From Thioalkalivibrio sulfidiphilus HL-EbGr7 (GTDB lineage: Bacteria; Pseudomonadota; Gammaproteobacteria; Ectothiorhodospirales; Ectothiorhodospiraceae), in NCBI RefSeq assembly GCF_000021985.1, contig NC_011901.1, positions 310,001 through 374,000 of the forward strand: 64,000 bases of DNA, written 5' to 3'. The notes below the pieces were generated by a model. The model searched no databases. It was not told the origin of the DNA and worked only from the letters and a program-made list of their open reading frames with translations. This document shows positions 3,363 to 26,249 of this stretch, piece after piece. The translations under genes were made by a program, and so were the position numbers. The first letter of the stretch is position 1, and each line of letters opens with the position of its first letter.

Positions 3363-5120
3363 ATGCGCAAACCCGAACCCGGTACCTTTGAACTCGGCCT
3401 GGTCATGGCCGGTGCGGTCTCAGCCGGCGCCTACACGGCCGGTGTGCTGGATTATCTGTTCGAGGCCCTGGAGACCTGGGAGAACGCCAAGGCGGCCACG
3501 CCGGACGAAGTGCCGAGCCACCGCATCCAGATCCGGGTGGTGACCGGCACTTCCGCGGGCGGCATCGCCTCGGCGATCACCGCCATGCTGCCCTTCACGC
3601 GCCATCACCCGGTCCAGGATCTGCACCTGGCGGACGGGCCGGGCAAGCCGGTCAATGCCGGGAAAAACCTGTTGTACCGATGCTGGGTGAGGGACGTGGA
3701 CCTGGGCGACATGCTGGACACGGCGGACATCAAGGGCGACCACATCCCCTCGCTGCTGAGCGGCGATCCCGTGAGCCGCATCGCCAACGAGGCCATCACC
3801 TCGGTGCGCCAGAGCCCGCCCTCAGGGTGGATGCGCTGGTTCGCCAATCCCTTGCAGCTCTACCTGCAGGTGACCAACCTGCGCGGCGTGCCCTATCTCA
3901 TCAACATGGTCACCGACCAGGGCGTGCGCGGGCACCGGGTGATGAGTCATGCCGACCATGCCCACTTCGCCGTCTACGGCACCAGCGCGAGCCAGCCCGA
4001 GGGTCTGCCCCTGGGTGCGACGGCGGTGAACTGGCCGGGCACCCTGGGCACGCCCGACGACGGCTGGGAACGGGTGCGGGACGCGGCCCTGGCCACCTCC
4101 GCCTTCCCGGTGGGCCTGCCCGCCCGGGCCATGGACAATCATCTGCGCAGCTACGAGTCGAGACCCTGGTCGCGGCCCGCCGGCGTGCCGCTGTCCGAGG
4201 AGCCGCCGCGCATCGCGCCGGATTGCCCGCCCCACCTGATGCAGCCCTACCAGTTCTGGAGCGTGGACGGGGGTCTGATCAACAACGAGCCCCTGGAGAC
4301 GGCGCGCATCGCCCTGGCCGGTGCGCCGGATGCCCGCAACGAGCGCGACCCCACCAAGGCCGATCGGGCGGTGCTGATGATCGATCCGTTCCCAGACGAC
4401 ACCGGCTACAGTGCCCCCGAGCACGGCGAGATCCCGGACATGCTGGGTGCCGCCTTCGCCCTGCTGCCGACCCTCAAGAACCAGGCGCGCTTCAAGCCGG
4501 AGGAGGTGATGCTTGCCTTACACGAGGACGTCTACAGCCGCTTCCTGATCGTGCCCCGCAGGGGCGGGCGCCATGAGAGCGAGACCGACATCGCCTCGGC
4601 AGGGCTCGGTGGCTTCGCCGGTTTCGTGGACGCGGAACTGCGCATGCACGACTTCCAACTGGGCCGGCGCAACGCCCAGAAGTTTCTGCGCGATCACCTG
4701 GTGGTGCACCGGGATAATCCCATCGTGGCGGACTGGGTCAAGCGCATGGAGGCCAGTGGCAAGCTCCAGGACTTCCAGCCGAGGATTCGCGCCGCCGGCG
4801 GCCAGGAGATTGTGGACCGGGATTTCGTGCAGCTGATCCCGCTGGTGGGCGATGCCCGTGCCCAGGTGCCGTCGCGCCCCTGGCCCCAGCTGCGCTGGCC
4901 GGTGATCGAGAAGCGACTGAAGGCCGGTATCGAGAAGCGTGCCGAGGCCATCACCCCGGCCCTGGTGCGCCGTGGCCTGGGCATGATCGGCCTGAGCGAC
5001 AAGCGCCTGCTGGGCCGCCTGGTGCGCAGCTTCGCCTCCAGCAAGATTCGCGATGCGGTGCGCGACAAGGCGCTCAAGGCCATCGAGGAGGATCTGAAGA
5101 CGCGGCGGTTGCTTAGGTGA
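3363..5120 (+). CDS. Patatin-like phospholipase
   Basis: The 585-residue protein starts at the ATG at 3363, seven bases after a strong AAGGAGG at 3350-3356. The N-terminal region has the patatin oxyanion-type loop (LGLVMAGAVSAGAYTAGVLDYL) and the nucleophile elbow GTSAG with Ser64. The second member of the Ser-Asp dyad is Asp302 in WSVDGGLINNEP. It is longer than a minimal patatin domain, with a C-terminal extension (about 400-585) rich in charged helices and no predicted membrane span. The expected activity is acyl hydrolysis of phospholipids or other lipids in the cytosol or at the inner membrane. No signal peptide is visible. The gene is flanked by two repeat families and has no obvious operon partner. 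Confidence 0.85.
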   Translation: MRKPEPGTFELGLVMAGAVSAGAYTAGVLDYLFEALETWENAKAATPDEVPSHRIQIRVVTGTSAGGIASAITAMLPFTRHHPVQDLHLADGPGKPVNAGKNLLYRCWVRDVDLGDMLDTADIKGDHIPSLLSGDPVSRIANEAITSVRQSPPSGWMRWFANPLQLYLQVTNLRGVPYLINMVTDQGVRGHRVMSHADHAHFAVYGTSASQPEGLPLGATAVNWPGTLGTPDDGWERVRDAALATSAFPVGLPARAMDNHLRSYESRPWSRPAGVPLSEEPPRIAPDCPPHLMQPYQFWSVDGGLINNEPLETARIALAGAPDARNERDPTKADRAVLMIDPFPDDTGYSAPEHGEIPDMLGAAFALLPTLKNQARFKPEEVMLALHEDVYSRFLIVPRRGGRHESETDIASAGLGGFAGFVDAELRMHDFQLGRRNAQKFLRDHLVVHRDNPIVADWVKRMEASGKLQDFQPRIRAAGGQEIVDRDFVQLIPLVGDARAQVPSRPWPQLRWPVIEKRLKAGIEKRAEAITPALVRRGLGMIGLSDKRLLGRLVRSFASSKIRDAVRDKALKAIEEDLKTRRLLR

Positions 5121-24016: not shown

Positions 24017-24090
24017 TTGTAGGTCGGGCTTCAGCCCGACAGCCGTAGCTTCGGGAGACCGCGCTGTCGGGCTGAAGCCCGACCTACAAG
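24017..24090. repeat. GTAGGTCGGGCTTCAGCCCGAC palindrome
   Basis: The left arm TTGTAGGTCGGGCTTCAGCC, then CGAC, is mirrored by GTCGGGCTGAAGCCCGACC, then TACAA. Each arm contains its own smaller hairpin (GTCGGGCT/AGCCCGAC). It lies 27 bases past the stop of the GDCCVxC gene. A variant with GGTCGGCCTTCAGGCC arms is at 28579-28647. Confidence 0.85.
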
Positions 24091-24116: not shown

Positions 24117-24335
24117 TTATGTAAAAGCGCCTCCTCCGGACTGCTGCTGGGTCGGCGGGCAGGGCACATCGCCGTAGGAGCAGAACACGCAGCAGTCGCC
24201 CGGTTTCGGGCGCAGCAGGGCATGGCACTGCGCGCACTCGTAGTGCCACTGGCAGGCGTCCGTGGGCATGGTCTCGGTCGTGGCATGACCGCAGTGGGGA
24301 CAGGTGAGGGTGGATTGCAGGACCGGCTCGCTCAT
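24117..24335 (-). CDS. GDCCVxC-domain small zinc-ribbon-like protein
   Basis: This 72-residue protein contains CPHCGH, CAQCHALLRPKPGDCCVFCSYG and DVPCPP, here given as separate blocks. The GDCCVxC motif defines a family of small, Cys-rich, sometimes selenocysteine-containing proteins of unknown function. Here all Cys codons are TGC, so no selenocysteine is implied. Four N-terminal Cys in two CxxC pairs suggest a zinc ribbon, and the GDCC region could be redox or metal active. The ATG at 24335 overlaps the stop of the upstream Cys-peptidase gene (ATGA), indicating co-translation with the PA2778/PA2779 cluster. No signal peptide is seen. Confidence 0.85.
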   Translation of the reverse strand: MSEPVLQSTLTCPHCGHATTETMPTDACQWHYECAQCHALLRPKPGDCCVFCSYGDVPCPPTQQQSGGGAFT

Positions 24336-25351
24336 GGGGCGAGGGCCTGGGTGGGCAGCGGGCAGTGCAGGGGTGCGCAGGTGCGCGTCACTTCCGCGCC
24401 ATCCATGGTGACCAGGGTCTGCCGGTACTGGGCGTTGTCGGGCGCGAGCGCCACGGCGCAGCGGGCGGCCTGGCGGGCCTGCTCTCCGCAACCCTGGGCC
24501 TTGAGCACGTGGGCCAGGTTGTTCCAGCCGGCGTGGGCCTCGGGCTGATGTTCGATGAGGGCGCGGAAGGCGGACTCGGAGGCCGCAAGCTCGCCCTGTG
24601 CATAGCGCAGGTTGCCCAGGGCGATCCAGCTGATGGGCTGCTCCGGCCACTGCCGGGTGGCGGTCTCATAGGCCACGGCGGCCGCCTCGGTGCGGCCGAT
24701 CTGCTCCAGGTTGTTGGCGGCGCGCAGCCAGGGCAGGGCCTCGCCCGTGGCGGGCACTTGGTCGGGAGGCAGGGTGATGAAGGCCCAGCGCTCGCCCCGG
24801 CGCCAGGTGCGCTCGAAGCGGCTGAAGCTGTTCACGTGGCGCTCGATGGTGCCGGAGCGCAGCACGATCTCCCGGGCGGGCAGGTCGTAGCCGATCACCA
24901 CCGCGTAGTGCCAGTAGGGTGCAAAGTTCACGCCGAGGTTCTGGAATACCAGCACCGGATGGCCGGCGGCCACCTCCCGCAGCACGTCTTCCAGGCGGGG
25001 ATTCAGCGGATAGGCCACCAGCCCGCGGGCGCGGGCGGCGGCGAGCATCTCCGTCTGCAGGCTGCCCTGGCGCTCGGGGATGTAGACCTCGGAGACCAGG
25101 GCGTCGGGATGGGTGTCGACACCGAGGTCCACCAGCACGGTGGCCAGCGCCGCCGGGCCGCACTGGTAGTCCTCCTGGGGGAAGAAGGGCACGTGCGTGA
25201 GTTCCACCTGCTCGGGCAGGTCGGGCGGTGCGCCCCGGGCGAGCTGCTTGCTCTGGGGGGCGGTGGCGCAGCCGGCGCCCAGCAGGGCGACCAGCAGCAG
25301 GGAAAAGAAGACGCCCGCCACCTGGCGGGCGTCGCGGGCACTGCGGGGCAT
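24332..25351 (-). CDS. PA2778-family C39-like cysteine peptidase lipoprotein with TPR
   Basis: The 339-residue protein has a lipoprotein signal peptide with lipobox LLGAGC at about residues 24-29. The peptidase domain carries the catalytic Cys in EDYQCGPAALATVL, and a His in APYWHYAVVIGYD followed by a likely Asn/Asp region. The C-terminal third holds TPR repeats (WIALGNLRYAQGELAASES, AHAGWNNLAHVLKAQG). C39-like peptidases usually cleave leader peptides; PA2778-type proteins are exported, and their substrate is unknown. The gene sits directly after two PA2779-type small membrane proteins and is joined at its end to a GDCCVxC gene by a four-base overlap, so the four form one operon. Confidence 0.88.
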   Translation of the reverse strand: MPRSARDARQVAGVFFSLLLVALLGAGCATAPQSKQLARGAPPDLPEQVELTHVPFFPQEDYQCGPAALATVLVDLGVDTHPDALVSEVYIPERQGSLQTEMLAAARARGLVAYPLNPRLEDVLREVAAGHPVLVFQNLGVNFAPYWHYAVVIGYDLPAREIVLRSGTIERHVNSFSRFERTWRRGERWAFITLPPDQVPATGEALPWLRAANNLEQIGRTEAAAVAYETATRQWPEQPISWIALGNLRYAQGELAASESAFRALIEHQPEAHAGWNNLAHVLKAQGCGEQARQAARCAVALAPDNAQYRQTLVTMDGAEVTRTCAPLHCPLPTQALAP

Positions 25352-25743
25352 CAGCGGACGGGGCGGATGAACGAGAAGATGTCCGTCACGCCCAGGGCAT
25401 CCAGCAGCACCAGGATCAGGAAGATGATGAGCACCGTCTCCACCACGCCGGCGCCGGCGGGCAGTTCGGCCAGGCGCTGGTTGAGCTCGGCCACTTCCGC
25501 GTCGGTCATGCGCGAGACCCGCTCCTGGGCCGCTTCGGGGGAGACGCCCATGCGCTCCATCTGTTCGCGGATGTCTTCCCGGGAGAGGGTCTGCATCAGG
25601 GTGGCGCGGTCCACATGGGCCTGTTCGCTGGCCAGCAGTTCCCCGGTGCCCACCATGGAGGCGTGCAGCGGGGAGGTCACGATGGCGAACAGCAGCAGCG
25701 TGGCGGCCAGGGTGACGAGGGTGCGAAGTCCGGATTTCATCAT
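25351..25743 (-). CDS. PA2779-family small membrane protein (second copy)
   Basis: The 130-residue protein has an N-terminal hydrophobic segment (about 6-26), a conserved middle (SMVGTGELLASEQAHVDR, SREDIREQMERMGVSPEAAQ) and a second hydrophobic segment (TVLIIFLILVLLDALG) before a C-terminal motif TDIFSFIRPVR. Two membrane segments enclose a helical, probably periplasmic, domain. Its stop is interleaved with the start of the Cys-peptidase gene (shared base at 25351), so they are coupled. The C-terminal TDIFxFIRP block is shared with the paralogue just upstream. The function is unknown; it may be a partner or substrate of the peptidase. Confidence 0.85.
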   Translation of the reverse strand: MMKSGLRTLVTLAATLLLFAIVTSPLHASMVGTGELLASEQAHVDRATLMQTLSREDIREQMERMGVSPEAAQERVSRMTDAEVAELNQRLAELPAGAGVVETVLIIFLILVLLDALGVTDIFSFIRPVR

Positions 25744-25770
25744 GATCGTGACTCCTTATCCGGCCGCGCC

Positions 25771-26169
25771 TCAGCGCGCCGGACGGATGAACGGGAAGAT
25801 GTCCGTGGCGCCGATCACGTCGGTGATCACGAACACGATGAACAGCAGCAGCACCACGCCCAGCACGCTGGCGCTGCCCACCGGCAGTTCGTCGAGGCGC
25901 TCGTTGAGGGCGACCACTTCCGCGTCGGTCATGCGCGCCACACGCTCGGCGGCCTGGGCGGGATCCACACCCATGGTGGCGAGCTGCTCGCGCACGTCGT
26001 CGCGGGACAGGGTGGCCATGAGGCGCTCACGATCGGCCAGGGACTGTTCGGTGGCGAGCAGTTCGCCGGTGCCGATCATGCTGGCAAACGCGGGGCTCAG
26101 GGTGCCGCCCAGCAGGGCGAAGATGCAGAGCAGGACGAGTACACGTCGAATGTAGTTGTTCTTGATCAT
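25771..26169 (-). CDS. PA2779-family small membrane protein (first copy)
   Basis: The 132-residue protein starts at 26169 with GGAGG upstream, rather than the longer frame. It has an N-terminal hydrophobic segment, a middle domain (SMIGTGELLATEQSLADRE, SRDDVREQLATMGVDPAQA, ARMTDAEVVALNERLDELP), a second membrane segment and the end TDIFPFIRPAR. It is clearly paralogous to the downstream copy. It is the first gene of the four-gene unit ending with the GDCCVxC protein. There is no double-glycine leader site of the bacteriocin type, so a simple leader-peptide model is not supported by the sequence. Confidence 0.85.
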   Translation of the reverse strand: MIKNNYIRRVLVLLCIFALLGGTLSPAFASMIGTGELLATEQSLADRERLMATLSRDDVREQLATMGVDPAQAAERVARMTDAEVVALNERLDELPVGSASVLGVVLLLFIVFVITDVIGATDIFPFIRPAR

Positions 26170-26249
26170 GACGCACGACCTCCGGGGATCCATGGGTGGC
26201 TAAACCGGATACATTCTGTGCGGGTGTTTGTACGGGCGTCAATCGCTGA

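Follow-up and report, generated by a model that had tools for sequence, protein, structure and literature searches.

The locus described here raises the question of what a predicted periplasmic cysteine peptidase does beside two small membrane proteins encoded directly upstream of it, and by which feature it would recognize them. The genes lie in a window of 64,000 nucleotides (the whole stretch of DNA that was analysed), which covers positions 310001-374000 of the 3.46 Mb genome of Thioalkalivibrio sulfidiphilus HL-EbGr7. The initial annotation had described a four-gene envelope cluster with a possible processing or sorting function, in which a TDIFxFIRP tail shared by the two membrane proteins might serve as the tag.

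Genes of the locus and their linkage

Four ORFs, all on the minus strand as are the sites given below within and just upstream of them, make up the locus, and each belongs to the family to which it had been assigned, with scores far above the family cut-offs. PA2779a (25771..26169, 132 aa) combines a Sec signal peptide, a periplasmic helical domain, one membrane helix, and a short C-terminal tail, and scores 142 bits against NF033919 (curated cut-off 40) and 193 bits against PF20332/DUF6627 (2e-57, cut-off 27). Its start at 26169 is supported by a GGAGG nine bases upstream, and a weak Sigma70-like promoter match (9 of 12 positions; 0.2 expected by chance in the region) lies at 26213..26242. 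The paralogue PA2779b (25351..25743, 130 aa) reaches 138 bits and 162 bits (1e-47) against the same two models, with the same cut-offs. Both are candidate substrates of the putative processing protease PA2778 (24332..25351), a lipoprotein with Peptidase_C39_2 and C-terminal TPR domains that matches NF033920 across model positions 1-255 with 373 bits (cut-off 150). The last gene encodes a GDCCVxC protein (24117..24335; NF041374, 110 bits, curated cut-off 40). The tight coupling that had been noted is confirmed as well: PA2779b and PA2778 overlap in TGATG at 25351, PA2778 and the GDCCVxC gene in ATGA at 24332-24335. Downstream of the latter, a large inverted repeat (GTAGGTCGGGCTTCAGCCCGAC ... 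GTCGGGCTGAAGCCCGACCTAC, 24017-24090) resembles a REP/MITE-type element.

Conservation extends to two kinds of component, PA2779 and PA2778, rather than to four. Among 229 genomes of the class, PA2779 occurs in 54 of the 54 that encode PA2778 (Fisher 2e-49, not corrected for relatedness) and in three more, where two of the genes lie at contig ends and one beside a frameshifted PA2778. In a larger sample of 369 genomes, PA2778 was found in 87, PA2779 above its cut-off in 89, and both in 86, which corresponds to 86 of the 90 genomes with either family (again not corrected for relatedness). The four exceptions are three contig ends (G011, G210, G358) and one relic (G377), a PA2779 without signal peptide in a genome in which PA2778 was not found; a sub-threshold PA2779 match in G064 is a chemotaxis receptor and was discarded as a false positive. 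These counts bear out the claim of a peptidase with dedicated membrane partners. In loci fetched by PA2778 alone, PA2779 lies directly upstream in 62 of 63, and the pair spans gamma-, beta-, and deltaproteobacteria as well as Nitrospirota; a search across the loci for a further conserved neighbour yielded none beyond close relatives. One MAG locus (L031) carries a PA2778 with intact Cys that PA2779 does not adjoin. Two loci deserve mention in their own right: A TerC/Alx-like membrane protein ORF (3389-4372) stands between PA2779 and PA2778 at L113:2730-5341, a rare break of the pair, and a PA2779 relic lacking its signal peptide at L108:5413-5730, from a genome in which the search for PA2778 found none, reads as decay after partner loss.

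Genomes carry one to three copies of PA2779 and mostly one of PA2778. Extra, unlinked PA2779s are present in seven genomes (G082, G035, G127, G154, G352, G255, G376), always with a PA2778 elsewhere in the genome, and in five of the seven they lack the tail and keep a PAG-type motif. The sole orphan PA2778 away from a contig end in the genome survey (L073, 5786-6865, in G154) has had its catalytic Cys replaced, QCGP having become QGAP, with His and TPRs kept; the same genome holds an intact PA2779/PA2778 pair elsewhere.

The GDCCVxC gene, by comparison, is a translationally coupled but passing neighbour outside the conserved system. Its overlap with PA2779 is weak (18 genomes versus 11 expected, p 0.01, not corrected for relatedness), its adjacency to the pair is confined to the window's own family, where it sometimes lies upstream and on the opposite strand, and it is absent downstream of PA2778 in the closest relative (L003, 95% identical). 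We therefore rejected it as a fourth part. Strain ALJ17 of T. sulfidiphilus shows 95% protein identity to the window's genome.

The PA2778 peptidase and its membrane partner

The AF2 model of PA2778 is confident (mean pLDDT 95), and its N-terminal domain (24752..25204) has the C39 fold: It superimposes on ComA (3k8u, TM 0.80; 0.80-0.81 over the target for 3k8u and 5xe9) and also matches the C39-like structure 3erv, while a profile of this domain alone matches ComA and the double-glycine protease LahT (6mpz) by sequence. In alignments to 3k8u, 6mpz, and 3erv the catalytic residues fall on Cys64 (25160-25162) and His148 (24908-24910), both of which occur in all of 61 non-redundant relatives; 59 of these also have Gln59. 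The canonical catalytic Asp is missing. Ser166 (24854-24856) occupies its position, with Ser in 56 and Thr in three of the 61 relatives, and the equivalent change in CvaB, D121S, abolishes secretion (PMC3335142). The active site of PA2778 must consequently be rewired, or its chemistry differs. The lipobox Cys28 (25268..25270) is likewise found in 61 of 61 relatives, and the TPR domain occupies 24404..24739 (PF13432 and others), so that the C39-like Cys and His, the TPRs, and the lipid anchor stand as originally described. The +2 residue, Ala in PA2778, is never Asp in the 61 relatives, from which an outer membrane location is predicted. In the Nitrospirota and deltaproteobacterial versions (L059-L065) the C39 and TPR parts are encoded by separate adjacent genes; PA2778 of the window is thus a fusion of parts that form a gene set elsewhere. 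In these same loci the juxtamembrane motif of PA2779 reads L[RK]VG and W147, next to the catalytic His of PA2778, is replaced by N or D, a possible co-variation confined to one clade.

PA2779 was examined across 68 non-redundant members. In 63 of them the signal-peptide processing site carries Ala, and in 67 the distribution of charges predicts that the C-terminus lies in the cytoplasm. The AF2 model of PA2779a, whose mean pLDDT is only 66, places helices at residues 38-54, 57-65, 70-79, and 82-94, followed by a membrane helix at 100-119; in this low-confidence model LPVGS is not helical and joins the periplasmic helices to the membrane helix. The most conserved columns are G67, R76, E84, P96, and G98, the last two of which belong to the juxtamembrane motif: LPVG in PA2779a (25876..25887), with the proposed cleavage after the Gly at residue 98, and LPAG in PA2779b (25453..25464), its proposed cleavage site. 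Pro is found at position 96 in 62 of 68 members, Ala or Val at 97 in 65, and Gly at 98 in 63, with hydrophobic residues at -4 and -7. The common feature of the family is accordingly a periplasmic helix whose end, Φ(-7)xxΦ(-4)P[AV]G, directly precedes the membrane helix. Tail-less and unlinked members keep the PAG-type motif, with T replacing P in one.

This motif shares some features of a double-glycine leader. The leader consensus is L(-12)xxxE(-8)L(-7)xxxxG(-2)G(-1), and the PCAT1 and LahT proteases read -4 and -7 among other leader positions (PMC6959990). PA2779 departs from the consensus in two ways: Gly is found at -1 (63 of 68) with Ala at -2 (59 of 68), and its LxxxE[VLI] sits seven residues further upstream. 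A PDB profile search with PA2779 returned weak helix matches alone, for example to ribosomal S13, and was not used.

The two paralogues of the window do share their ends, TDIFPFIRPAR in PA2779a (25774..25806) and TDIFSFIRPVR in PA2779b (25354..25386). Among the relatives, the TDIFxFIRP tail is present in 43 of 68 and absent in 25. Several of the latter stop at a bare helix with a terminal Lys or Arg, and the PA2778s neighbouring tail-less PA2779s keep Cys and His. The pattern TDIF.F[IV] does not occur elsewhere in this genome; a looser pattern, searched for in relatives, is found in PA2779s and at scattered sites without PA2779, where no ORF carrying it was seen in those checked. Because the tail is absent from so many members while the partner PA2778s are intact, and because the pattern is confined to two genes, it cannot be a general tag.

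Predicted processing of PA2779 and alternative readings

The junction between PA2779b and PA2778 contains a hairpin and T-run resembling an intrinsic terminator (25302..25333; hairpin 25310-25333, T tail to 25302; fold z -3.0), which lies inside the first PA2778 codons and which we propose to be an attenuator. The hairpin arms are near-identical in three related loci (L003, L004, L005), and a locus of another genus (L089) has an unrelated stem at the equivalent position. In a systematic scan, 20 of the 87 non-redundant PA2779/PA2778 junctions had a terminator, with unrelated stems in distant lineages; none was detected in 392 windows placed within PA2778 or in 87 placed within PA2779, and the number expected from dinucleotide shuffles was 0.3. 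From these junction terminators PA2779 is predicted to be made in excess of PA2778, as a substrate would be relative to its enzyme. In line with such an excess, the PA2779 promoter of P. stutzeri was among those selected when promoters of strong constitutive activity were screened for (PMC10155442).

We propose the following mechanism: PA2779 would be exported by Sec, lose its signal peptide, and be retained in the inner membrane by a single helix near its C-terminus, leaving a helical domain of about 70 residues in the periplasm. PA2778, predicted to be anchored as a lipoprotein at the periplasmic face of the outer membrane, would probably grip the PA2779 helices with its TPR domain and, by means of its ComA/LahT-type double-glycine peptidase domain, cut after the Gly of Φ(-7)xxΦ(-4)PAG beside the membrane, thereby freeing the periplasmic domain. 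The anchor and any TDIFxFIRP tail would be left behind, and a leaky terminator between the genes would keep PA2779 in excess over PA2778. That PA2778 and PA2779 form such a dedicated periplasmic processing system, in which a cut after LPAG releases the PA2779 domain, is in our judgement an evenly balanced proposition. The near-perfect co-occurrence and adjacency of the two families, the match to C39 peptidases in fold and sequence, the invariant Cys and His, and the hydrophobic -4 and -7 positions before the Gly suggest it, as do the higher copy number of PA2779, the junction terminators, the loss of the Cys from the orphan PA2778, and the constant presence of PA2778 in genomes with unlinked PA2779s. 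Against it stand the replacement of Asp by Ser or Thr, a motif that ends in AG or VG instead of GG, the displaced LxxxEL, the pLDDT of 66 for the PA2779 model, and the unpaired PA2778 of the MAG locus. Moreover, cleavage, its site, and release as its outcome are inferred, as are the topology and the expression ratio, and a protease anchored in the outer membrane must reach a substrate anchored in the inner membrane.

The main rival makes PA2779 a regulator of PA2778: LPAG would lie in the groove of the active site, where it would either inhibit the enzyme as a pseudo-substrate or serve as an activating anchor, and PA2778 would act on other envelope proteins. The strict linkage and the conserved motif fit this equally well, and an excess of PA2779 suits an inhibitor, too. 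However, the multiple divergent PA2779s of single genomes, some of them unlinked, look more like several substrates, and conservation of small residues at the end of the motif is typical of a scissile site; we regard regulation as unlikely.

The family-wide change from Asp to Ser speaks for a further possibility, which we consider quite unlikely, namely that PA2778 uses its C39-like module for binding and carries out no proteolysis of the classical kind, or that its Cys performs an acyl transfer that joins PA2779 to another molecule in the manner of a sortase. The inactivity of D121S in CvaB (PMC3335142) is in line with this, and PA2779 has the sortase-like tripartite layout of motif, membrane helix, and basic end (PMC3237569). 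Yet Cys and His of PA2778 are invariant, and the PA2779/PA2778 neighbourhood offers no obvious acceptor or partner. C39-like domains that merely bind have no catalytic activity and typically no Cys.

We consider it very improbable that PA2779 is a precursor of the double-glycine type, in which the periplasmic domain would serve as leader and the hydrophobic peptide at the C-terminus, similar to a bacteriocin or a signal, would be the mature product. No conserved exporter or immunity gene is found near the pair, and the C-terminal part of PA2779 varies, being in some members a plain helix that ends in one Arg. In favour of such a precursor are the normal maturation of the C-terminal part by C39 enzymes (PMC6959990) and the conservation of the region before LPAG. 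The original four-gene reading with the tail as recognition tag, which the tails of both window paralogues and of 43 relatives had made attractive, is scarcely credible and was rejected, given the 25 tail-less members with intact partner peptidases, the restriction of the pattern in this genome to these two genes, the predicted cytoplasmic position of the tail, and the unlinked GDCCVxC gene.

Returning to processing, we would tentatively, and at somewhat less than even confidence, extend the proposal as follows: A widespread periplasmic C39 protease with a rewired triad may release or transfer a small, abundant helical inner-membrane protein at LPAG, and the pair may represent a dedicated Gram-negative sorting system that relies on a peptidase of the bacteriocin type in place of a sortase or rhomboid and in which a terminator recurring in mid-operon sets the excess of substrate.

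Relation to known systems

The pair itself is not new, as family names exist for both proteins. In the open literature searched, no role for PA2778 or PA2779 was found; by name they come up in one P. stutzeri promoter survey and in connection with one transposon site close to PA2779. Nor did that literature mention the proposed cut site, the dismissal of the tail as a tag, the replacement of Asp by Ser, or the terminators at the junction. With PA2779 above cut-off in 89 of 369 genomes, pseudomonads included, about a quarter of the sampled class has the pair. If the processing model is true, a soluble cysteine peptidase would join the enzymes that process membrane-anchored C-termini.

PA2778 resembles ComA, PCAT1, and LahT in its C39 fold (ComA 3k8u, TM 0.80), the sequence match to LahT (6mpz), and its Cys and His, and PA2779 resembles their substrates in the hydrophobic -4 and -7 positions before the glycine site. 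In contrast to these enzymes, PA2778 is a predicted periplasmic lipoprotein fused to TPRs and not an ABC transporter, and it has Ser for the catalytic Asp; its proposed substrate differs from theirs in a PAG instead of a GG site, a Sec signal, and a membrane anchor. With NlpI, a TPR lipoprotein adaptor of the periplasmic protease Prc (PMC5686067), PA2778 would share the TPR lipoprotein character and a place in periplasmic proteolysis; NlpI is the adaptor of a protease encoded apart from it, whereas the peptidase domain of PA2778 belongs to the lipoprotein itself.

In sortase-type systems enzyme and target are co-distributed, and adjacent when dedicated (PMC3237569). The GlyGly-CTERM/rhombosortase, PEP-CTERM/exosortase, and LPXTG/sortase systems share with PA2779 the succession of motif, membrane helix, and basic end, and with the pair the co-distributed enzyme; they differ in that PA2778 is a C39 lipoprotein with one small family of homologous candidate substrates. 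CTERM models gave no match to 11 PA2779s, tail-less ones included. Judged by its architecture, the pair would work like the dedicated sortase-type systems and belong to none of them. We considered rhombosortase as the real PA2779 enzyme because a published list credits T. sulfidiphilus with this enzyme but with no GlyGly-CTERM target (PMC3237569). Rhombosortase exceeds its cut-off in 30 of 57 PA2779 genomes and is missing from 27 (p 7e-4, not tree-corrected), an overlap above chance but far from strict, and was rejected. In the genome studied here, rhombosortase is over the cut-off at C1:249539-249970 (L128); beside it lies an S8-type peptidase ending in ...PASSGGGGEGQYRSGL, without a membrane helix and perhaps a decayed target.

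The nearest functional precedent for PA2778 is FapD of the Pseudomonas functional amyloid system, a periplasmic C39 peptidase for which genetic evidence indicates that the Cys is needed and whose target has not been identified (PMC5557850). Because this studied enzyme is without an identified target, PA2778, a C39-type protein for which both a strictly linked partner and a site of cleavage can be named, the latter by prediction, provides a direct handle on the question of what such peptidases act on. The comparison is one of described properties: Both are predicted or known periplasmic C39 peptidases, and whereas FapD is a member of the fap operon, PA2778 adds TPRs, a lipid anchor, and a strictly linked partner.
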